The position numbers were made by a program, and so were the translations under genes. DNA of 64,000 bases from Microbacterium protaetiae (GTDB lineage Bacteria; Actinomycetota; Actinomycetes; Actinomycetales; Microbacteriaceae): the NCBI RefSeq assembly GCF_004135285.1, contig NZ_CP035494.1, forward strand, positions 3,038,001 to 3,102,000, in the 5' to 3' direction. A model generated the notes under the pieces. That model was not told the origin of the DNA. It saw only the letters and a list, made by a program, of their open reading frames with translations, and made no database searches. Below are positions 9,448-22,489 of this stretch, piece by piece (within the stretch, counting starts at the first letter, position 1; every line of letters starts with the position of its first letter).

Positions 9448-10191
9448 GTGAGTGAGGGGACCGATGCCGCGGCCCGCCGCCGCGCGGTGCGTGACGGGCT
9501 GGGTGTGGCCCTGGCCACGAGCGCGTACGGCATCTCGTTCGGCGCGCTGGCGACGGCATCCGGTCTCGATGTGTGGCAGACGTGCGTGCTGAGCCTGGTG
9601 ATGTTCACCGGTGGCTCGCAGTTCGCCTTCATCGGGGTGATCGGCAGCGGGGGACTGGCCGCGATCCCCGCGGCGATAGCCTCCTCTGCCCTGCTGGGTG
9701 TGCGCAACATCGCCTACGGCATGCGCATGGCGCCGCTGCTGGGTGGGGGATTCTGGCGCCGCGCCGCCGCAGCGCACTTCACCATCGACGAGTCCACGGC
9801 CGTCGCCCTGGGCCAGACCCGCACCCACGCGCAGCGGTGGGGTTTCTGGGTGACCGGGCTCGGCATCTACATCGGCTGGAACCTCACCACCCTGGCCGGA
9901 GCTCTCTTGGGCAACGTGCTCGGCGATCCGAAGACCTACGGATTGGATGCCGCGGCCGCGGCCGCCTTCCTGGCTCTGCTGTGGCCGCGGCTGCGGCGCC
10001 GGCAGGCGATAGCGGTGGGGATCGCGGCCGCGGTGATCGCAGCCATGCTCACGCCGGCGCTCATGCCCGGCATCCCGGTTCTCGCAGCCGCCGTGGTCGC
10101 CATCGTCGTGGGCTGGTTCAACTGGCTCGCCCGCGACGAGGTACCGTCTGCCGAGCCCGACGATGTCGCCGAACGGGAGGGCCTGCCGTGA
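9448..10191 (+). CDS. azlC: AzlC family branched-chain amino-acid exporter, large subunit
   Basis: A 247-residue membrane protein with about six helices. The N-terminal DGLGVALATSAYGISFGALA and the FTGGSQFAFIGV segment are typical of AzlC. AzlC and AzlD together export branched-chain amino acids and toxic analogues across the cytoplasmic membrane. The GTG start lies six bases after a TAGGCT box (9436-9441) with no Shine-Dalgarno sequence, so the mRNA is probably leaderless. Its TGA overlaps the azlD start as GTGA. Confidence 0.9.
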   Translation: MSEGTDAAARRRAVRDGLGVALATSAYGISFGALATASGLDVWQTCVLSLVMFTGGSQFAFIGVIGSGGLAAIPAAIASSALLGVRNIAYGMRMAPLLGGGFWRRAAAAHFTIDESTAVALGQTRTHAQRWGFWVTGLGIYIGWNLTTLAGALLGNVLGDPKTYGLDAAAAAAFLALLWPRLRRRQAIAVGIAAAVIAAMLTPALMPGIPVLAAAVVAIVVGWFNWLARDEVPSAEPDDVAEREGLP

Positions 10192-10502
10192 CGTTGTGGA
10201 ATGCCGTGCTGGTGGCGGCCATCATCTGCGTGGCGTTGAAGACGCTGGGCTATCTCGTCCCGGCACGCGTGATGCAGGCCCCGCGCCCGGCGCGCACCGC
10301 CGACCTCCTCACCGTGGCGCTGCTGGCGGCGCTTGTGGCAGTGCAGACGCTCGGTGCCGGGCAGACCATCGTCGTCGATGCCCGCGTCCCCGCCGTCGCC
10401 GTCGCTGCCGTCCTGCTCCTGCTGCGTGCGCCGTTCCTCGTGGTCGTGGTGGCGGCGGCCGTGGTCGCCGCACTGTTGCGGCTGTGGGGATGGGCGGCCT
10501 GA
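10188..10502 (+). CDS. azlD: AzlD family exporter small subunit
   Basis: A 104-residue, four-helix membrane protein. The TLWNAVLVAAIICVALKTLG opening and the GYLVPARV segment fit AzlD, the small partner of AzlC. The GTG start overlaps the azlC stop by four bases, which also fixes the start, since the frame is open far upstream inside azlC. A palindrome array follows directly. Confidence 0.88.
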   Translation: MTLWNAVLVAAIICVALKTLGYLVPARVMQAPRPARTADLLTVALLAALVAVQTLGAGQTIVVDARVPAVAVAAVLLLLRAPFLVVVVAAAVVAALLRLWGWAA

Positions 10503-10514
10503 GGCGCCCGTTGT

Positions 10515-11060
10515 GCGACACGTGTCGCGGCGTGTCACAGAATATGCGGCATCCGGGCCGTGATTCTGCCTAGTTCTGTGACACGCATGGCGGCGTGTCA
10601 CAGAACGGGTGGGTGAGGGGCCGGCAGGCCGCCATTTGTGTGACACGCCCGCGGGTGGGCGCCGGTCGGTTGCGCCCTCGGGTGGGGTGTGACCGGATGG
10701 CTCACACCCATCCCGCCGCGTGTCACAGAACGGGCGACATCCGGGCTGGAATTCTGCCCTGTTCTGTGACATACCCCGCGGCGTGTCACAGAACGGCCGG
10801 GTGAGGGGGCCGGCAGGCCGCCATTTGTGTGACACGCCCGCGGGTGGGGTGGGGGCGTTTCGGGGTGTCACAGAACGGCCGGGTGAGGGGGCCGGCTGGC
10901 CGCCTTTTGTGTGACACGCCTCCGGGTGGGGTGGGTACGGATGGCTCATACTCATCCCTCGGCGTGTCACAGTACAGCCGGGTGAAGGGGCCAGCAGGCC
11001 GCCATGTGTGTGACAGACAAACCTCCGAGCGGGGCGGCCGCCGCGCGTCACAGAAAGGGC
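10515..11060. repeat. Array A of GTGTCACAGAA/TTCTGTGACAC palindromic repeats
   Basis: The 574 bases between azlD and the next gene contain no gene but at least six palindromic units of 54-59 bp, near 10530-10586, 10592-10649, 10718-10771, 10780-10838, 10862-10920 and 10961-11018. The stems are 10-13 bp (for example GCGTGTCACAGAA with TTCTGTGACACGC) around a core of about 30 bases. Two core types exist: an ATCCGGGC-containing one (units 1 and 3) and GGGTGAGGGG(G)CCGGCAGGCC (units 2, 4, 5, 6). A half-unit lies near 11045, and the 14-nt palindrome GCGACACGTGTCGC sits at 10515-10528. Short reading frames here are shadows of the repeat. Confidence 0.9.
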
Positions 11061-11076
11061 GACGTAGACTGACGCG

Positions 11077-11466
11077 GTGAAGAACACGCTGTTGCGAGTG
11101 CTGGTCTGGGTGATCGCCCTGGCGATCGGCGCCGTCTACGGCACAGCCGGCACCATCGCGCACGCGTACCGGCTCGGTGTGTTTCCGGTCGGGGTCATTC
11201 TCGCACTGCTGGGCATCGGCGCGATGTTCGTCGCCATGCGCGGGATGACCGGCGATCGCTGGACGACGCTGGCCGGAGGCGTGGGAGCCCTCGCGGCGAC
11301 CGTGATGTTCTCGGGCACCGGCCCCGGCGGATCGGTCGTCGTGCCGGCCGTGGAAGAGGGTGCTGTCAACCTCGGATTGGTCTGGGGCATCGGGATGGCC
11401 TTCCTCGCGACGGTCGTGGTCGCCTGGCCGGATCTGTCGAGGACGACCGTCGACGCAGACAACTAG
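11077..11466 (+). CDS. Small four-helix membrane protein, unknown (DUF6113-like)
   Basis: A 129-residue hydrophobic protein with four predicted membrane helices, small loops and an acidic C-terminus. It resembles the short proteins that sit before the ferredoxin gene in related actinobacteria (DUF6113 from memory, unverified). No catalytic motif is visible. The GTG start lies six bases after TAGACT (11065-11070) with no Shine-Dalgarno, so it is probably leaderless. A half-copy of the upstream palindromic repeat touches its promoter. Confidence 0.7.
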   Translation: MKNTLLRVLVWVIALAIGAVYGTAGTIAHAYRLGVFPVGVILALLGIGAMFVAMRGMTGDRWTTLAGGVGALAATVMFSGTGPGGSVVVPAVEEGAVNLGLVWGIGMAFLATVVVAWPDLSRTTVDADN

Positions 11467-14320: not shown

Positions 14321-15081
14321 TGTCGCGGCTTCTGGTCCGGCGCCCCTCACCGCGACTGGCCGACGGTGAGCTGACCCACCTCGAGCGGGTGCCCGCCGAC
14401 GCCGCGCTGGCGCTTGCGCAGTGGGAAGGGTACGTCGACGCCTTCCGCACCCGCGGCTGGGAGATCGTTCCGCTTCCCGCGGCCGACGATCACCCCGATG
14501 GAGTGTTCGTCGAAGACGTCGTGGTCATCTTCTCCGATCTCGCGGTCATCACCCGGCCCGGGGCCGACTCGCGCCGCGGCGAGATCGAGACGGCACAAGG
14601 GGTGGTGGAGGCATCCGGAATCGAAACCGCTGCCATCCAGGCGCCCGGCACCCTCGAGGGCGGCGACGTGCTCAAAGTGGGTCGTACCGTCTACGTCGGG
14701 CGCTCATCACGCACGAACGACGAAGGCATCGCCCAGTTGCGCACGCTGCTGACGCCGCGTGGATGGGATGTCGTTGCGGTGCCGATCACGAAGGTGTTGC
14801 ATCTGAAGACCGGCGTGACGGCGCTGCCCGACGGCACCGTCATCGGATACGAGCCTTTGGTCGACGACGTGTCGGTGTATCCCGAGTTTCTCGGGATTGC
14901 CGAGCCGGAAGGCAGCGCGGTCGTGGTGCTCGATGAGCACAGCGTCCTCATCTCTGCGGCGGCGCCGCGTACCGCCGATCTGCTGCGCGATCGGGGACTG
15001 GATGTCGTTGCGGTGCCGATCAGCGAGTTCGAGAAGCTCGAGGGCTGCGTCACGTGCCTGTCGGTGCGGGTGCGCGACTGA
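14320..15081 (+). CDS. ddaH: Dimethylarginine dimethylaminohydrolase (DDAH)-like amidinotransferase-fold enzyme
   Basis: A 253-residue protein of the guanidino-group modifying superfamily that hydrolyses dimethylarginine to citrulline and an amine. Visible features are FVEDVVVIF (substrate-binding acid, near residue 64), the catalytic His in LHLKTGVTAL near 160, and the nucleophile region EGCVTCLSVRV at the C-terminus; by DDAH pattern the reactive Cys is the first or second of that pair. The ATG overlaps the gltA stop as ATGA, which sets the start. It is probably co-translated with gltA, though I see no metabolic reason for the link. Arginine deiminase is excluded by the small size. Confidence 0.88.
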   Translation: MSRLLVRRPSPRLADGELTHLERVPADAALALAQWEGYVDAFRTRGWEIVPLPAADDHPDGVFVEDVVVIFSDLAVITRPGADSRRGEIETAQGVVEASGIETAAIQAPGTLEGGDVLKVGRTVYVGRSSRTNDEGIAQLRTLLTPRGWDVVAVPITKVLHLKTGVTALPDGTVIGYEPLVDDVSVYPEFLGIAEPEGSAVVVLDEHSVLISAAAPRTADLLRDRGLDVVAVPISEFEKLEGCVTCLSVRVRD

Positions 15082-15094
15082 TTCAGCCCGCCGC

Positions 15095-18000
15095 TCAGCC
15101 CGCCGTTGAGCTGGTGAGCTCGAACGCCCGCCACATCGCCGCGTAAGCCCCGTCGGCGGCCAGCAGTTCGTCGTGCGTGCCGTGTTCGACGACGCGGCCG
15201 TGGCTGAGCATGAGGATGCGATCGGCGCCCATGGCCGTCTGCAGCCGATGTGCGATGATCACCGTCGTGCGGTCGCGCGCGAGCCGGTGCATGGCCTCGG
15301 TCACACGGGTCTCACTGGCCAGGTCGAGGTTCGAGGTCGCCTCGTCGAGCAGCAGGATCGCCGGGTCGACGAGTTCGGCGCGGGCGAGGGCTATCAGCTG
15401 CCGCTGCCCCGTTGAGAGTGAGGTGCCGCGCTCCGAGATCGCGGTCGCGTAGCCGTCGGGAAGCGCCGTGATCATCGCCTCGGCCCCGACGGCGCGTGCC
15501 GCCCGTGCGACGTCGTCGGCAGTGGCATCCGGTCGCCCATAGGCGATGTTCTCGCCGATCGTGCCGGTGAACAGGAACGACTCCTGGGGCACATAACCCA
15601 GCCGTGCGCGGTACCCGGCCAGATCGAGGGTGCGCAGGTCGGCGCCGTCGGCGCGCACGGCACCGCGATCGGGATCGTAGAACCGGGCGATCAGCTTCAT
15701 CACGGTCGACTTTCCCGCGCCCGTCTCGCCGACCAAGGCCACCGTCTCACCGGGCCGGATGCCGAGTTCGACGCCGCCCAGTGCCTCGGTGGGCCGCGCG
15801 ACCGGCGCCGCCTCGGCGAGGCGCTTCACATCGCGCGGACCCCGCAGGCGCGACGAGACCGCTTCCGTGGGATACGCGAAGTGCACGTCGTCGAGGTGTA
15901 TATCGCCGGCCAGCGCATCGACGGGCCGCGGGTGGTCGGCATCGGGCGTGAGGGTGTCCAGGCGCATGAGCTCGGCGATCCGCGCCACCGACACGCGGGT
16001 CTGCTGCCACGCGTCGAACACCTGCGAGAGCTGCTGGATGGGGGAGAAGAACATGTCGATGTACAGCAGAAAGGCGATGAGAGCTCCGGCCGTGAGCTGC
16101 CCGTGGGCTATCAGCGACGCCCCGAGCCCCAGCACTATCACGTCGGCGATCGCCGAGAGGAACTGCACGAACGGAAAGTAGATCGCCACCAGGCGCTGAG
16201 CGGCCACCCGCGAGCGCAGGTATGCGGCACCGTGGCCGTGGAAGGTGCGCATCGTCTCGTGCTCGTGAGTGAATGCCTGCGACTCGCGTACGCCGGCCAG
16301 GCTCTCTTGGAAGGCGGCGTTCACCACGGCGATCCGCTCGCGCGCCAGGTCGTAGAGCCGCGATGCGCGGCGGCGGAACCACACGGTGGCCAGCGCCAAC
16401 GGGATGATGATCGAGAGCACTGCCAGGCCCAGGGGGGCATCCACGACCACCAGGGCGACGGCGACACCGACGAATGTGACACCGGCGACCAAGGCGCCCA
16501 GCAGTCCGTTCTGCAGCAGCGATTCGAACTGGTCGATGTCGGTGGTCATCCGGGTCATGATGCGCCCGGCCATCTCACGCTCGTAGTAGTCGAGCGAGAG
16601 TCGCTGCAGCTGGGCGAACACCCGCACACGCAGCGAGAGCATGATGCGCTGCGCCACGCGCCCGCTGATGAACGACTCGGCCATTCCGGTGATCATGTCG
16701 CCGAGCGCGATGACCAGGTAGAGGGCGGATGCCGCGAACAGCACGTGCGCGGTGCCGGTGACCACGCCCTCGTCGATGCCGGTCTTCACGATCGCGGGGC
16801 CCAGCAGGCCCGCAAGCGCATCGAGGACGACGAAAACAAGCGCGAAAAGGAGCGGCCGACGGAACTCGCGCAGGAGCGCTCCGAGACTGAAGTCGCTGCG
16901 CCGCAGGCTTTCGTGGGCCAGGTCGAGGTCGGCGTGATCGACGATCGGCGGGAGCTTCTCGACCTGCGCGAGAAGTTGCGGTGTGGGCGCGAGGCTTCCG
17001 CGCAGGCCGCCGCCACCGCTGGAGCCGCCCAGCCCCATTCCCAGGCTCGGCGCCTGCACCGCGTGCGTGGCGGGCGGGGCGGAGGCGACGGCCGACGATG
17101 CGGGCACGACAATTCGTACAGCGGTGGCGCTCGGCGAGCCAGACGAAGGGGATCGGACCGGCTCGTCCGGCGCCTCGTCGGGCACCTCACCATCGCCGAA
17201 CAGAGCCCGATAGGTGGGGCTGGCGTCGATGAGCTCGTCATGGCTGCCCTCGGCCACGATACGGCCGCCCTCGAGCACGACGATGCGGTCGGCCAGGTGC
17301 AGCGTGGAGTGCCGGTGGGCGATAAGCAGCACAGTGCGGTCCTGCATCACCGAACGCAGCGCGTCGTGGATGGTCTGCTCGGTGCGGGCATCCACGGCGC
17401 TGGTGGCGTCGTCGAGCACGAGGATCGCGGGATCCCGCAGAATCGCGCGCGCGAGCGCCACGCGCTGTCGTTGCCCGCCCGACAGACTCAGCCCCCGCTC
17501 GCCGACGACGGTGTCGTAGCCGTGGGGGAGCGCGGTGATGAACTCGTGTGCCCGCGCGGCGCGCGCAGCCTGTTCGATCTGCTCGTCGGTGGCATCGGGC
17601 GCGCCATAGGCGATGTTGTCCCGCACCGACTCCGAGAACAGGAAGGCGTCTTCGAAGGCCATCCCCACGCGGTGGCGCAGCGAGGCGAGCTGGACGCCCC
17701 GCGCATCCCGTCCGCCGATCGTGACCGCCCCGGCATCCGGATCGTAGAACCGAGTGAGCAGCCTGCCCGCCGTCGACTTGCCGCTGCCGCTGGCACCGAC
17801 CAGCGCCACCTTCTCGCCGGGGCGGATCGTGAGTGAGAAGTCGTCGAGCACCGGGGCGCCGCCCGGGTACGCGAACGTGACGTGGTCGAACGATATGGCG
17901 CCGGGCCGCTCGTCGAGCTCGATCGCGTCGGGGGCATCGACCACGGTCGGTTGCAGATCGAGCAGCTGGAAGATGCGCTCCACGCCGGCGCGCGCCTGCT

Positions 18001-18907
18001 GGGCGATCGTCAGCATGCCCGCCAACTGGCGCGAGGGCGCCATCAGCTTGGCGATGTAGGTGGAGAAGGCCAGGAAGGTGCCCAGTGAGATGGAGCCGTT
18101 CAGGGCGAGCCAGCCGCCGAGGGCGAGAATGCCCACCTGCCCGAGCACCGGCACGGCCTCAAGCAACGGCTGGTAGCGCGCCTGGATGCGCACAGCGCGC
18201 ATCTGGGAGCCGTACAGCCGGGACGCGGCATCCGTCAGCCGGCGCAGTTCGCGCCGCTCCTGGCCGAACGCCTTGACCACCCGCACACCGGCGATGTCTT
18301 CGTCGACGATGCCGGCCAGTTCGCCCTCTTTCTGCTGGCCGTCCCAACTCGCCGGGAACAGGCGGCTGCGCAGGCGGTAGCTGATGGCGATCAGCGCCGG
18401 CACGATGGCGAGACTGATGATGGCCAGCAGCGGAGACAGAATGAACATGACGATGAGCGACAACGCCATCATCAGCACGTTGCCGCCGACCATGGGCACG
18501 AAGTTGAGCAGCCCCTGCACGAGCCCGGTGTCGGAGTTCGCCCGGGCGACCAGCTGACCGGTCGGCATGGTGGCCAGGGTTGCGGCATCCATGCCCTGCA
18601 GACGGTCGTGCATGTCGTTGCGCAGGTCGTTCTGCACGTCGAGTCCGATGCGTCCGCCCCGGTAGCGGCGCAGATAGGCGAAGCCGAACCCCAGCACCGC
18701 CAGGGCGATCAACAGCAACAGCCACGGCAGCAACGGAGCGGTGCCGCTCACGATCACGTCGTCGACGATCGTGCGCGCGACCAGAGGCGTGGCCACCTGA
18801 CAGGCAGCGCCCAGCGCAGCGGCGCTCAGGGCGATCACGAGGTGGCGCCGGTGGCGCAGAAGATACCCGCCCAGTCGACGCACCCACCCGGGCTCGGATG
18901 CCTTCAT
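15095..18907 (-). CDS. Fused heterodimer-type ABC exporter (TMD-NBD-TMD-NBD, 1270 aa)
   Basis: One chain carries two complete exporter halves that are usually separate subunits. Half 1 has six membrane helices, Walker A GASGSGKST near residue 370, signature LSGGQRQR near 474, and a Walker B ending DDATSAVD, in which the catalytic Glu is Asp. A Gly/Ser/Pro-rich linker lies near 590-640. Half 2 has Walker A GETGAGKST near 1060, the altered signature LSTGQRQ near 1165 and intact DEATSNLD. The degenerate site therefore combines half-1 Walker motifs with the half-2 signature, as in asymmetric heterodimeric exporters. Substrates are probably drugs or lipids. The ATG overlaps the stop of the upstream MarR gene. 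Confidence 0.92.
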   Translation of the reverse strand: MKASEPGWVRRLGGYLLRHRRHLVIALSAAALGAACQVATPLVARTIVDDVIVSGTAPLLPWLLLLIALAVLGFGFAYLRRYRGGRIGLDVQNDLRNDMHDRLQGMDAATLATMPTGQLVARANSDTGLVQGLLNFVPMVGGNVLMMALSLIVMFILSPLLAIISLAIVPALIAISYRLRSRLFPASWDGQQKEGELAGIVDEDIAGVRVVKAFGQERRELRRLTDAASRLYGSQMRAVRIQARYQPLLEAVPVLGQVGILALGGWLALNGSISLGTFLAFSTYIAKLMAPSRQLAGMLTIAQQARAGVERIFQLLDLQPTVVDAPDAIELDERPGAISFDHVTFAYPGGAPVLDDFSLTIRPGEKVALVGASGSGKSTAGRLLTRFYDPDAGAVTIGGRDARGVQLASLRHRVGMAFEDAFLFSESVRDNIAYGAPDATDEQIEQAARAARAHEFITALPHGYDTVVGERGLSLSGGQRQRVALARAILRDPAILVLDDATSAVDARTEQTIHDALRSVMQDRTVLLIAHRHSTLHLADRIVVLEGGRIVAEGSHDELIDASPTYRALFGDGEVPDEAPDEPVRSPSSGSPSATAVRIVVPASSAVASAPPATHAVQAPSLGMGLGGSSGGGGLRGSLAPTPQLLAQVEKLPPIVDHADLDLAHESLRRSDFSLGALLREFRRPLLFALVFVVLDALAGLLGPAIVKTGIDEGVVTGTAHVLFAASALYLVIALGDMITGMAESFISGRVAQRIMLSLRVRVFAQLQRLSLDYYEREMAGRIMTRMTTDIDQFESLLQNGLLGALVAGVTFVGVAVALVVVDAPLGLAVLSIIIPLALATVWFRRRASRLYDLARERIAVVNAAFQESLAGVRESQAFTHEHETMRTFHGHGAAYLRSRVAAQRLVAIYFPFVQFLSAIADVIVLGLGASLIAHGQLTAGALIAFLLYIDMFFSPIQQLSQVFDAWQQTRVSVARIAELMRLDTLTPDADHPRPVDALAGDIHLDDVHFAYPTEAVSSRLRGPRDVKRLAEAAPVARPTEALGGVELGIRPGETVALVGETGAGKSTVMKLIARFYDPDRGAVRADGADLRTLDLAGYRARLGYVPQESFLFTGTIGENIAYGRPDATADDVARAARAVGAEAMITALPDGYATAISERGTSLSTGQRQLIALARAELVDPAILLLDEATSNLDLASETRVTEAMHRLARDRTTVIIAHRLQTAMGADRILMLSHGRVVEHGTHDELLAADGAYAAMWRAFELTSSTAG

Positions 18908-19356
18908 GCGCGACGTCCGGTCGGGTGGATCTGAGCCTGTCGCTCTTCGAGCGCGGCGCCGAAGGCTGCGATGGCGGCCATTGTCGCAGTGGGTTCGGAG
19001 GTGTGCTCGGCGACCTCGGTGACCAGCGCGACAAGAGCGCGCTCGGCGTCGAAACGCACGCGGTCGCCCTCGGCGGTGATGCGCAGGTCGATGGCGCGCT
19101 GATCGCCGGCGCCCCCGGCACGGGCGAGCAGGCCACGTCGAACCAGCGAGTCCACCGATGCGCTCACACTCGGCTTGCCCACCGCGAGGCGTTGGGCCAG
19201 GCGCGAGGCGCGCGCCTCGCCGTCGGCGACCGCCGAGAGGATCCGATAGTCGCTCAGGCTGAGCGGAGCGTGGTGCTGCAGGGTACGCTCGAGCATCCGC
19301 GCCATGCGGGCGAACGTCAATGTCGCTGCGCGGGCGTCGTCATTTGGTTCGGTCAC
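18904..19356 (-). CDS. MarR family transcriptional regulator
   Basis: A 150-residue winged-helix repressor. The core LSLSDYRILSAVADGEARAS, then RLAQRLAVGKPSVSASVDSL and RRGLLAR, gives the recognition helix and wing near residues 35-80. It sits directly upstream of the ABC exporter with an ATGA overlap, so it most likely controls that exporter and itself. GTG 19356 is chosen because a CAGAAT box ends six bases before it; GTG 19371, five codons upstream, is the alternative. A perfect 19-nt palindrome covers the start codon, a natural autorepression site. The ligand is unknown. Confidence 0.9.
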   Translation of the reverse strand: MTEPNDDARAATLTFARMARMLERTLQHHAPLSLSDYRILSAVADGEARASRLAQRLAVGKPSVSASVDSLVRRGLLARAGGAGDQRAIDLRITAEGDRVRFDAERALVALVTEVAEHTSEPTATMAAIAAFGAALEERQAQIHPTGRRA

Positions 19357-19363
19357 CGAACCA
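19345..19363. promoter_or_regulatory. Candidate MarR operator TGGTTCGGTCACCGAACCA
   Basis: TGGTTCGGT-C-ACCGAACCA is a perfect inverted repeat with 9-base arms, spanning the GTG start of the marR gene and lying next to its probable -10. Size, symmetry and position fit a MarR dimer operator. A related GTTCGGTGGTACCGG lies about 10 bases further upstream and could be a second, weaker site. Binding by this MarR is inference. Confidence 0.6.
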
Positions 19364-19416
19364 TTCTGCACCCTGTTCGGTGGTACCGGTGCGTTCTGTG
19401 CTCGCTGCCCGCGGCG

Positions 19417-19651
19417 GTGTGTCTCAGAAAGTGTTCTGTGGGGCGCGCATTGAGCGTGTCACAGAAAGTGCGGGATATCGCGGGGTGAGGGCGGCTGTTC
19501 TGTGACGCGCGGTGCGGGCGTGGCTGTTCTGTGACGCGCGGTGGGGGCGTGGCTGTGCTGTGAGGCGAGCGTCGAGCGTGTCACAGAAAGTGCGGGATGT
19601 CGCCGGGTAGGGGCGCCTGTTCTGTGACGCGCGGTGCGGGTGTGTCACAGA
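19417..19651. repeat. Array B of GTGTCACAGAA-type palindromic repeats
   Basis: The 433 bases between marR and the nuclease-fold gene hold no gene. Two full units lie at 19454-19510 and 19576-19632, each with GCGTGTCACAGAA pairing TTCTGTGACGCGC (one G-U pair) around AGTGCGGGATnTCGC. Between them are two extra right arms (near 19527 and 19555), with a degenerate small unit at 19417-19440 and a half-unit at 19641-19651. The arms match those of array A nine kilobases away; the cores differ. Bases 19652-19789 show nothing I can name. Confidence 0.85.
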
Positions 19652-19789
19652 TGGTGCTGGTCACGGGCCGCGAGGTCACCCGAGGTGCGACATCCCGCGT
19701 CTCCTCCACAGACAGACAGGAACTCCCAGTTATCCACATATTGGTGCGCAGCATCCCGAACCGCCCCGGCGAGGATGTCGGATGGAACC

Positions 19790-20758
19790 ATGACCCGCAC
19801 AGCACCTCTGCCCGCGCAGCTCATCGGCCGCCCATTCTCCGTCGCAGAAGCACGAGCGGAGGGCGTCAGTCGGTCTCGCTTGCGGGCGAGCGACCTTGTC
19901 ATCCCGACGCGCGGCGCGCGCACGACGCATCCGCATCGTTCCGTCGTTCCAGAGAAGGAGACGCCGTCGCAGCGGATGATTCGTCTGCGCGACGAGATGA
20001 TCGCCCGAGCACGCGAGGTCGCTCCCGTGCTCACGCCGGAGCAGTTCTTCAGTCACGACGTCGGTGTCGGCATCATCGGCGGGCCGCTGCCGTACACCAC
20101 GGCAGACAAACGCGCGGTGGACGTCTCGGCGCGCAGACCGGCCGGGCAGCCGCGGCGAGCGGGGATGATCGGGCACCGATTGCAGCAGCGCGAATCTTCC
20201 TTCCGGATCGCGGAGGGGCTGCGCACGGAGAACCCCGCTCGGCTGTGGCGCCAGGTGGGTGCCCGGTGGGATCTGGATGATCTGATCGCGCTCGGCGACC
20301 ACCTGATCTTGCCGCGCAATCGGCTTGTGACGCTCGAAGATCTCTGGGCCGAGGTTCGGGTGGCCGGCGATGTTCCCGGCGGAAAGCTCATGCGTGCGCT
20401 ACGCGAGATCCGCGTGGGCTCTGAGACGCCCGAAGAGACCAAGCTGCGACTGGTGCTCGTGCGGGCAGGTCTGCCCGAGCCCGAGCTGAACTGGGTGCTG
20501 ACCGACGAGAACGGAGAGTTCGTGGCGCGCCTCGATCTCGCCTACCCGGAGTATCGGGTCTGTCCCGAAAGCGACGGACGGGTGCACGCTTTCGACGAGG
20601 AGCAGTTCGCGCGCGACGCCGACCGGTGGGACGCGATCCGTGGGCAGGGCTGGAACCACGTGCGGATCCTCAGCCATCACCTGCGTCCGAATCCATCGGT
20701 TGCCGTGCGCAAAGTGGCCGAAGCACTCATCGCCGCCGGCTGGCGCCCGGGAGCCTGA
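19790..20758 (+). CDS. DUF559/VSR-like PD-(D/E)XK-fold protein with N-terminal AbiEi-like region
   Basis: A 322-residue protein of a type common and often multicopy in actinobacteria. The N-terminal part (residues 1-60, FSVAEARAEGVSRSRLRASD) resembles the winged-helix start of AbiEi-like proteins. The C-terminal 110 residues have a VSR/DUF559 endonuclease layout: EETKLRLVLVRAGLPEPELN, then ARLDLAYPE with the likely catalytic Asp near residue 255, then ESDGRVHAFDEEQFARDADR and a final GWNHVRIL strand. The usual His pair after the DG motif is VHAF here, so activity is uncertain. It stands alone, bracketed by palindrome arrays B and C. Function is unknown; defence or repeat-associated nuclease roles are guesses. 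Confidence 0.7.
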   Translation: MTRTAPLPAQLIGRPFSVAEARAEGVSRSRLRASDLVIPTRGARTTHPHRSVVPEKETPSQRMIRLRDEMIARAREVAPVLTPEQFFSHDVGVGIIGGPLPYTTADKRAVDVSARRPAGQPRRAGMIGHRLQQRESSFRIAEGLRTENPARLWRQVGARWDLDDLIALGDHLILPRNRLVTLEDLWAEVRVAGDVPGGKLMRALREIRVGSETPEETKLRLVLVRAGLPEPELNWVLTDENGEFVARLDLAYPEYRVCPESDGRVHAFDEEQFARDADRWDAIRGQGWNHVRILSHHLRPNPSVAVRKVAEALIAAGWRPGA

Positions 20759-20806
20759 CGGGCTGGTTGGTGGGCCGCGCCCCGGTGGGCTGCGGCGGCA
20801 CCGGTG

Positions 20807-20872
20807 GGCTGGGGCTGGGCCGGGGGCTGGGCGGGTAGTGATGGGCCGGGGGCTGGGCGGGTAGGCGGCACC
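20807..20872 (+). repeat. G-rich tandem tract with quadruplex potential
   Basis: The block GGGCCGGGGGCTGGGCGGGTAG occurs, up to small differences, at about 20817 and 20842, and GGG runs repeat every few bases on the plus strand from 20807. Runs of this density can form G-quadruplexes. The tract lies in the non-coding stretch after the DUF559-like gene, and no gene is supported in 20759-20880. Confidence 0.6.
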
Positions 20873-20877
20873 GGTGG

Positions 20878-21283
20878 GCCGCGGTACCCCGGTGAGCCGC
20901 GGTACCCCGGTGGGCGGCGGCATCTGTGTGGCCCGCGGCATCCCTGTCACAGAAGTGGTGGGATGCTGCCGCCCGCACCCGTGCGTAGTGTGACACCGTC
21001 CGGTGCCATGTCACAGAACGGGCGACCTCTTGCGCGGCAGCCCGCATTTTCTGTGACACGCCCGGCCCGGGGAGTCTGGGTGGGCGGTGGCGCCCCGGTG
21101 GCCCGCGGCATCCCGGTGGGCCGCGGTACCCCGGTGGGCGGCGGCATCTGTGTGGCCCGCGGCATCCCTGTCACAGAAGTGGTGGGATGCTGCTGCCCGC
21201 ACCCGTGCGTGGTGTGACACCGTCCGGCGCCGTGTCACAGAACGGGCGACCTCTTGCGCGGCAACCCACGTTTTCTGTGACAC
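20878..21283. repeat. Array C: palindromic repeats inside a ~169-bp tandem duplication (224-bp offset)
   Basis: Bases 20891-21060 and 21115-21283 are near-identical copies differing at only about eight positions; the offset is 224 bases. Each copy contains a CTGTCACAGAAGTGG...GTGTGACACCG unit and a TGTCACAGAACGGGCGACCTC...TTTTCTGTGACACG unit, so array C has four palindromes of the same family as arrays A and B. Short CCGCGGTACCCCGGTG repeats fill the joints. No gene is supported here. Confidence 0.85.
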
Positions 21284-21490
21284 GCGAAGCGGCGAAGCGG
21301 CCAAGCGAAGCGGTCAGGACGCGAAGCGGCCAACATGCGAAGCGGCCAACATGCGAAGCGGCCAACATGCGAAGCGGTCAACAAGCGAAGCGGTCAACAA
21401 GCGAAGCGGCCAAGCGAAGCGGCCAACATGCCAAGCGACCAAGCGACCAAGCGACCAAGCGACCAAACGCTCAAGCGGCCAAACGGCGAA
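21284..21490 (+). repeat. 16-bp minisatellite GCGAAGCGGCCAACAT and derivatives
   Basis: From 21321 the 16-mer GCGAAGCGGCCAACAT is repeated three times, then twice as GCGAAGCGGTCAACAA, then in shortened forms that decay to GCGACCAA units by about 21460. The shorter motif GCGAAGCGGCCAA also occurs at 21285-21320. Since 16 is not a multiple of three, every frame stays open and rotates through the same peptides, so the long frames here are not genes. It ends about 45 bases before the dapD stop. Confidence 0.9.
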
Positions 21491-21535
21491 CCGCGGCCGC
21501 CCCGCCCCGATCAGCCAGCGCCCGCGCCCTCCCGC

Positions 21536-22489
21536 TCAGGCGTGCAGCGCCTCGTTGAGAGTGACACCGGCGCCGGCGCGGCGCAACACCTCGACAGCTC
21601 CGCTGAGCGAGTTGCGGCGGAACAGCAGCCGATCGCCCCCCGACAGGGTCGATGCCTTCGCCGTGGGGCGCGTGCCGTCGGCGCGCACAGGTTCGTCAGC
21701 GAGCACGACCTTGGTGCCGCCGGTGAGGTAGAGCCCGGCCTCGACGACGCAGTCGTCGCCTAGCGAGATGCCGATGCCGGCATTGGCGCCCAGCAGGCAG
21801 CGTTGACCGATCGACACACGATGGGTGCCGCCGCCCGAGAGGGTGCCCATGATGGATGCCCCGCCGCCGATGTCGCTGCCATCGCCGACGACGACGCCCT
21901 GCGAGACTCGCCCCTCAACCATGGAAGCCCCGAGAGTGCCGGCGTTGTAGTTCACGAATCCCTCGTGCATGACGGTCGTTCCCGGCGCCAGGTGCGCGCC
22001 CAGGCGCACGCGCGAGGCGTCGCCGATGCGCACGCCGGGCGGGGTGACGTAGTCGGTGAGCCGCGGGAACTTGTCCAGCCCCTGCACCTGGATGCCGGCC
22101 GCGCGCAGTCCCGGGCGCAGCCGGTCGAGATGATCGGGGTGCACCGGACCGGCGTTCGTGAAGGCGACCGTGGGCAGGAACGCGAAGATCCCGTCGAGGT
22201 TGAGCTGGTTCGGCGCGACCAGGCGATGCGAGAGCGCATGCAGGCGCAGGTACACGTCGGCCGTCGAGGCCGGCGCCGCGTCGAGATCGATCTCAAGCTC
22301 GACGATCTCGACCCGCACGTCGCGCCGGGGGTCGTCGCCGACCGATCCCTGCAGCTCGGCAGCACGGGTGGCCTGGGTCGTGCCGTCGGCGATCCCCAAG
22401 CGCGGAGCGGGGTACCACGCGTCGAGCACCGTGCCGTCGGAGGCGATGGTGGTCAGTCCGGTTGCGAAGACAGTGCGCTTCTCGCTCAT
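21536..22489 (-). CDS. dapD: 2,3,4,5-tetrahydropyridine-2,6-dicarboxylate N-succinyltransferase (DapD)
   Basis: A 317-residue enzyme that succinylates tetrahydrodipicolinate, the first committed step of the succinylase branch to diaminopimelate. The C-terminal half shows left-handed beta-helix hexapeptide character (VRIGDASRVRLGAHLAPGTT, then MHEGFVNYNAGTLG and SMVEGRVSQGVVVGDGSDIG), as in actinobacterial DapD. The N-terminal domain is the longer actinobacterial form. It is divergent from dapE, an arrangement also seen in mycobacteria. On the minus strand TAGCGT lies six bases before the ATG, with AAAGGG between, so it is either leaderless or has a very short leader. Confidence 0.94.
   Translation of the reverse strand: MSEKRTVFATGLTTIASDGTVLDAWYPAPRLGIADGTTQATRAAELQGSVGDDPRRDVRVEIVELEIDLDAAPASTADVYLRLHALSHRLVAPNQLNLDGIFAFLPTVAFTNAGPVHPDHLDRLRPGLRAAGIQVQGLDKFPRLTDYVTPPGVRIGDASRVRLGAHLAPGTTVMHEGFVNYNAGTLGASMVEGRVSQGVVVGDGSDIGGGASIMGTLSGGGTHRVSIGQRCLLGANAGIGISLGDDCVVEAGLYLTGGTKVVLADEPVRADGTRPTAKASTLSGGDRLLFRRNSLSGAVEVLRRAGAGVTLNEALHA

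Follow-up and report, generated by a model that had tools for sequence, protein, structure and literature searches.

Repetitive extragenic palindrome (REP)-like repeats are common in bacteria. GTAG REPs are palindromes of 20–40 bp with GTAG at one end, and in the REP/REPIN–RAYT system such repeats lie dispersed between genes, often in pairs, flank the gene of their enzyme and match that enzyme lineage by lineage. The present analysis concerns a stretch of 64,000 nucleotides of Microbacterium protaetiae (contig NZ_CP035494.1, positions 3,038,001 to 3,102,000; hereafter the window), in which the intergenic gap right of azlD carries an array of palindromes. The likely partner of these repeats is a nuclease-like gene located between the two other arrays of the window. 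The locus shares with REP/REPIN–RAYT the dispersed, intergenic and often paired palindromes, the enzyme gene flanked by repeats and the lineage-specific match between the two. It differs in the enzyme, which is predicted to be a fusion with an EDxHD/Vsr-type nuclease and not an HUH Y1 transposase, in its units of 52–53 bp with the half-site gcGTGTCACASAA and no GTAG tag, and in the half-site statistics, which in two unit sets fit duplex DNA better than a hairpin. The logic appears to be that of REP–RAYT; what would be new is the predicted enzyme of another fold and the larger, operator-like units.

Another class, the CGTC REPs, has stems of 8–9 bp and loops of 4–5 nt; its tag is often changed to TGTC, its authors describe it as apparently without a dedicated transposase, and their report names five phyla, Actinobacteria not among them (PMC3733652). 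The repeats considered here are likewise palindromic and their arms contain GTGTC, comparable to the TGTC variant, whereas their half-site and unit length differ from the stems and loops given in that text. On the protein side, the DNA that AbiEi binds and bends comprises two inverted repeats of 23 bp with a 3-bp spacer (49 bp in total), and the Rv2827c promoter holds four 23-bp repeats with 13 bp inside the pairs and 4 bp between them, which gives a 63-bp period (PMC7319586). The N-terminal fold predicted here is alike, and the unit length and the 63-bp period are close to those operators, although the 13- and 4-bp gaps of Rv2827c do not correspond one to one with the gaps found here. These type IV antitoxins have no nuclease half, and the present palindromes also occur downstream of the gene and dispersed; and unlike the AbiE toxin–antitoxin system, whose DNA-binding domain the structure model resembles, the nuclease-like gene has no adjacent DUF1814 toxin gene at its own locus. 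The EDxHD homing endonuclease I-Bth0305I sits as a dimer on a target site almost 60 bp long (PMC3943268). The predicted nuclease fold, the putative dimer on a very long target and the acidic and His catalytic-type residues kept in the homologues recall this enzyme, but the gene here is free-standing, has palindromes on both sides and encodes an AbiEi-like N-terminal half. A literature search, conducted mostly outside subscription papers and preprints, found no account of this repeat–protein pairing, which does not establish its absence from print.

A nuclease-like gene between palindromes

The open reading frame (ORF) at 19790–20755 is bracketed by the second and third arrays of the window. 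Its structure model divides into an AbiEi-like half (residues 3–208) and an EDxHD/Vsr-type nuclease half (residues 211–318). The match to REase_MTES_1575 (PF18741) is sub-threshold, with 22.5 bits against a cut-off of 38.2; NCBIfam and PADLOC gave no match, and no solved relative was found by sequence at a useful E-value. Residues E216, D249, E260, H266 and D278 are invariant among 66 close homologues (alignment A1), and E216, E260, H266 and D276 are invariant among 20 more distant ones, in which D249 and D278 vary; the catalytic-type roles of these residues were assigned by the author, not by superposition. A homologue at E <=1e-20 is present in 129 of 149 genomes, and a profile of the family finds members in 193 of 296 genomes of the class, representing 87 of 114 genera, at E <=1e-15.

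The association of such genes with palindromes was measured by a flank test, in which the best inverted repeat with 12-nt arms and a unit of 49–54 bp was sought in stretches of 300 bp and called strong at 11/12 or better. It replaced a detector with 10-nt arms and four spacings, which was too lenient, since it matched inside 17 of 29 genes, and whose spacing control was uninformative, as one palindrome scores at several registers. The 65 loci of the genus comprise the 30 given by the search, minus one at a contig end (L105, left out of the flank, arm-similarity, paralogue and orientation counts), and 36 chosen by hand, mostly for same-genome paralogues. Strong palindromes were found in 59 of 130 flanks within 300 bp of the gene, compared with 3/130 at a distance of 400–700 bp and 2/130 inside genes. 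Relative to gene orientation, they stand upstream in 31 and downstream in 28 of the 65 loci, on both sides in 17 and on either side in 42. Across the class, the 29 loci given by the search (one of which, L180, is the same gene as L109) have a strong palindrome in 33/58 flanks versus 1/58 in the control, with 26/44 for the 22 loci outside the genus and 7/14 for the seven within it. Twenty more distant loci chosen by hand gave 14/40 against 1/40. The link between palindrome and gene extends to other families of the class. Five plasmid homologues from Arthrobacter and Tsukamurella vary: both flanks carry a strong palindrome in L261 and L266 and one flank does in L262, and L267 and L268 reach at most 10/12. 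One homologue was found in the phage collection; its record is uncultured and 6.7 kb long, and one flank of the gene has a strong palindrome. A second unit at a period of 61–66 bp occurs in only 11/59 and 6/48 qualifying flanks, and therefore doublets are not the rule outside the M. protaetiae genome.

The arms of the palindromes diversify together with the protein. Arm types include TGTCACAGAA, TGTCCGGGTT, TGTCCCACTT, AGGTCCCAGTT, TACGGACGCGAC, AGGTGGCAGTTC, GAATCGCGCACT and CGCCAGTGCGGG, and family f31 has GATCATGGAGAAG. Like arms (at least 11/12) occur on the left and right flanks of the same locus in 31/65 loci, compared with 0/65 for control flanks, a zero explained in part by the smaller number of candidate palindromes at a distance from the gene. 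The fair control is a permutation among near flanks, which lowers the mean left–right similarity from 8.98 to 7.06 (p <=1e-4). Protein identity and arm similarity are correlated (Mantel rho 0.36, p <=5e-4), and the share of pairs with like arms rises from 1% at 30–40% identity through 3% at 40–50 and 17% at 50–60 to 68% at 60–70. Like arms join 67 of 99 different-genome pairs at >=60% identity and only one of 30 same-genome paralogue pairs, which speaks against a mere genome effect, with the caveat that protein identity, too, is lower in the same-genome pairs, at 30–54%. Common descent of the locus accounts for part of the correlation, because several loci seem to lie beside pfkA. By eye, the nuclease-like genes of L080, L082, L083, L084, L089 and L094, with different arm types, seem to sit beside the end of a pfkA-like gene, a possible hotspot.

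Repeats and proteins of matching type also occur in the same genomes. Units with TGTCCCACTT are present in 31 of 148 genomes, at 1–36 per genome (reversed control 0). With E-value classes set after the data were seen, the intermediate protein class accompanies these units in 28/31 genomes against 16/117 without them (p 1e-15), the own-type protein accompanies TGTCACAGAA units in 5/6 against 5/143 (p 2.6e-6), and the crossed pairings of the two unit types with the other class show no co-occurrence (p 0.88 and 0.91). Units with GATCATGGAG were found in eight of the 17 f31 genomes searched, at 1–5 each. Among 247 genomes of the genus, six have the strict unit pattern of M. protaetiae, its own included, and in two of these six (L053, L063) a gene with 63–64% identity to ORF 19790–20755 has units on either side. 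An exact-pattern scan of named genomes, from which records of the own genome were possibly omitted, gave two stretches, one in a Microbacterium metagenome-assembled genome and one in Cryobacterium melibiosiphilum. The latter carries related palindromes (L051, 2037–2420) with arms GTGTCACAGAA or GTGTCAGAGAT, and no nuclease homologue was found in its 8-kb stretch.

A separate observation concerns Azospirillum, where a palindrome doublet stands directly before a short DUF559 gene without an AbiEi half (Pfam 1.9e-36 and 3.6e-39) on a plasmid of Azospirillum sp. TSH58 (L264, ~950–1022) and on plasmid p1 of A. brasilense (L265, ~949–1018). The doublet consists of ~25-bp CCCTCCCC…GGGGAGGG palindromes, of which the second is degenerate in L265, and this family has 51 and 27 copies on the two plasmids compared with 2 and 1 for the reversed control. 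The two loci are orthologous and were found by inspection, and their association with the gene is given without a control.

The repeat family and its probable gain in the lineage

The 574-bp gap between the end of azlD (10502) and the start of the next gene (11077) contains six complete palindromes. An earlier reading of the letters alone (the sequence-only reading) had counted at least six units there, of two core types, which agrees with the present count and with cores assigned by eye; the unit length it gave, 54–59 bp, proved too long against the measured 52–53 bp. The palindrome it saw across the junction of two units is real, with perfect 14-nt arms at 10573–10586 and 10593–10606, and further arm-like sites lie at 10511 (two mismatches) and 11045 (one mismatch). 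Its placing of the array between azlD and fdxA is right in that a ferredoxin gene lies nearby, but this gene sits after the DUF6113-like membrane-protein gene, which intervenes directly. The arms do recur at 19.4 and 20.9 kb as it had said, in the arrays that flank ORF 19790–20755 (Table 1). Allowing up to one mismatch, the window holds 25 copies of the arm, compared with a mean of 0.64 and a maximum of 3 in 100 shuffles. Directly after the third array, at 21285–21520, a degenerate tandem series of short units resembling GCGAAGCGGCCAA was seen by eye.

Table 1. Positions of the palindrome arrays and of the genes beside them in the window
Feature	Position	Strand	Remarks
azlD, left neighbour	10188..10502	+	label from the sequence-only reading, not from a profile search; blastn anchor
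palindrome array	10511..11055	no strand	14 arms (<=2 mismatches), 6 complete units; right of azlD
unit 1	10532..10584	no strand	core type 1
unit 2	10595..10646	no strand	core type 2; 63 bp after unit 1
unit 3	10720..10772	no strand	core type 1
unit 4	10783..10835	no strand	core type 2; 63 bp after unit 3
unit 5	10865..10917	no strand	core type 2
unit 6	10964..11016	no strand	core type 2; right arm degenerate
right neighbour, DUF6113-like membrane-protein gene	11077..11466	+	DUF6113 25.9 bits, cut-off 27
second array	19419..19652	no strand	upstream of nuclease-like gene; complete units 19456–19508, 19578–19630
322-aa ORF, predicted AbiEi–nuclease fusion	19790..20755	+	structure model
third array	20944..21283	no strand	downstream of nuclease-like gene; units 20944–20996, 21008–21059, 21168–21220, 21232–21283

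The arms are far above chance frequency in the genome as a whole, where the exact 10-mer TGTCACAGAA has 87 sites in 3.79 Mb and its reversed control none. A scan of the window and of 19 stretches around the remaining exact sites gave 18 arrays, defined by at least three arms, with 251 arms and 117 plus–minus units. The geometry is conserved: in the register of the 10-mer, 62 units have a distance of 40 bp from plus to minus arm, 54 have 41 bp and one has 42 bp, and the distance from minus to the next plus arm is 22–23 bp in 63 cases, the rest being scattered. This gives a common period of 63–64 bp, which would correspond to about six turns of B-DNA and place neighbouring arms near multiples of 21 bp. 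The pooled half-site consists of two blocks, gcGTGTCACASAA and KGYGRSYT, flanking a degenerate centre, and the cores vary from locus to locus. The arrays are intergenic, as none of the 18 shares more than 30 bp with any gene predicted by a crude caller. Eight lie between convergent, eight between tandem and two between divergent genes (convergent over divergent, p 0.055), and 24 of 36 array borders face the 3′ end of a gene (binomial p 0.033); the distances to 3′ ends and 5′ starts show no clear difference (p 0.17).

Within-unit symmetry at positions 11–20 was compared with right halves shuffled within genome or locus, to tell duplex dimer sites from hairpins. It shows no excess in the TGTCCCACTT set (6.01 against 6.26 shuffled, n=76, p 0.99) or in 93 of the 117 units of M. 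protaetiae, those with at most one mismatch per arm (4.47 against 4.66, p 1.0). In these two larger sets the symmetry therefore comes from each half fitting the local half-site, as a dimer needs. Two of the three sets have half-sites that are exchangeable within a genome, which speaks for dimer sites in duplex DNA rather than for hairpins; the third set, all 18 units of f31, has a within-unit pairing excess (7.67 against 6.88, p 0.023).

The azlD search covered 28 genomes including that of M. protaetiae, and the gap was measurable in 12 others of the genus with both anchors, by ungapped extrapolation from the anchors to the gene ends. It spans 21–94 bp in 11 of these and 450 bp in one (G007). 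An inverted-repeat scan of the 450-bp gap (L166, 597–1048) gave no unit; this gap may stem from a separate insertion at that position. The short gaps in 11/12 relatives point to a lineage-specific gain. The array is nevertheless no one-off local duplication: missing in the relatives, it is one of the 18 arrays of the wider family.

The neighbours of ORF 19790–20755 are a MarR gene and a DapD-like gene, and beyond MarR lies a fused ABC exporter, which also matches the generic ATPase model AAA_21. Gene g14212 (ending at 15081) and the dapD-like gene (21536–22489) are 6,454 bp apart here, and they adjoin in five relatives at about 18 (L248), 105 (L255), 115 (L253), 220 (L254) and 460 bp (L247). 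The 6.45-kb block between them (15082–21535) consists of the exporter (1270 aa), MarR and the nuclease locus. Loci L243, L251, L252 and L258 have no g14212 match and carry citrate synthase 0.2–1.0 kb from dapD; the remaining eight gave no match left of dapD within the stretch examined. None of the exporter, MarR and nuclease-like proteins has a match at any of the 17 dapD loci in relatives.

Weighing the explanations

It is probable that the array belongs to a REP-like system in which an AbiEi–nuclease fusion takes the place of RAYT as the partner. The array would be a cluster of ~52-bp operator-like palindromes, each an inverted pair of ~22-bp bipartite half-sites (gcGTGTCACASAA-nn-KGYGRSYT), which two copies of the fusion protein would read as duplex DNA. 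We infer that the AbiEi-like half binds the arms and that the nuclease half is poised to cut at or near the site. From the gene between its own palindromes, copies would have reached 16 further intergenic sites of the genome, as non-autonomous repeats of REP type, and would have expanded in place there into arrays with locus-specific cores, the spread being driven by cutting and subsequent repair. Three observations limit this explanation: more than half of the near flanks fall below the palindrome threshold, four other DUF559 genes of the M. protaetiae genome are without convincing palindromes, and the f31 result leaves room for a hairpin role. The three options of the sequence-only reading are reflected in it to different degrees. 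A REP/BIME-like element fits in part, as the repeats are dispersed and intergenic, and so do binding sites of a dimeric protein, since spacing and half-site statistics match dimeric duplex-binding sites. For a non-autonomous mobile repeat, the short azlD gaps speak for a lineage-specific gain, whereas movement as such is only inferred.

The strongest competitor, though an unlikely one, describes the palindromes as operators only. An AbiEi-type autorepressor would bind them, the dispersed arrays would be decoys or a regulon copied by ordinary duplication, and the nuclease half would be uninvolved. The modelled AbiEi-like fold, the frequent strong upstream palindromes and the resemblance of unit length and 63-bp period to the AbiEi and Rv2827c operators agree with such a role. 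Against it, downstream palindromes are about as frequent, the bias of array borders to gene 3′ ends and the mere two divergent arrays are unlike a regulon, and the nuclease-type residues are invariant in the 66 close homologues.

That the repeats are miniature inverted-repeat transposable elements or end fragments of insertion sequences, with a transposase elsewhere and the nuclease-like gene as a bystander, is very improbable. Many insertion sequences have ends of 10–20 bp, and inverted repeats with variable centres would suit such an origin, but the arms vary along with the nuclease-like protein, and no transposase was recognised among the neighbour proteins, which were read unprofiled, the genome-wide search covering Y1 only.

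A role at the RNA level, as terminators, mRNA stabilisers or structured RNA, is hardly to be expected either. The transcript of the array folds strongly (z -8.05), the arrays are biased to gene 3′ ends and the f31 units have within-unit symmetry. However, any palindrome array gives a strong z-score, compensatory pairing is absent from the two larger unit sets, and neither terminators nor sigma-70 promoters were found in 10480–11100. In the window, a tRNA is the only Rfam match at gathering score; the array has three sub-threshold matches to microRNA models and no family near that score. Least credible is a classical REP/BIME family mobilised by a RAYT, which would share the intergenic palindromes, doublets, dispersal and flanked enzyme gene, but is ruled against by the absence of a Y1_Tnp (PF01797) gene from the M. 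protaetiae genome (0 matches, the same search being positive in 5 of 14 control genomes), by units of ~52 bp instead of 20–40 and by the two larger sets, whose units show no excess of internal pairing.

Meaning of the proposed repeat–enzyme pairing

Across many actinobacteria, different branches of the protein family are accompanied by palindromes of their own next to the gene, and this suggests a system of repeat and enzyme that has so far gone unrecognised. A bolder proposal, held tentatively, is that AbiEi–EDxHD/Vsr-type fusions are the mobilising enzymes of a separate, Actinomycetes-wide class of palindromic repeats, in which a toxin–antitoxin-style operator has turned into a mobile element; on a wider view, REP families that have no RAYT may find their missing partners in DUF559-type nucleases, a lead that comes from the two Azospirillum loci. 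At least one large REP class, the CGTC REPs, is reported to be without a dedicated enzyme (PMC3733652), and another repeat class here gains a candidate enzyme, of unrelated fold. The finding connects three fields that are usually separate, those of toxin–antitoxin operators, homing endonucleases and REP elements, and the paired variants of protein and arm constitute a natural data set on how an AbiEi-type domain reads DNA.
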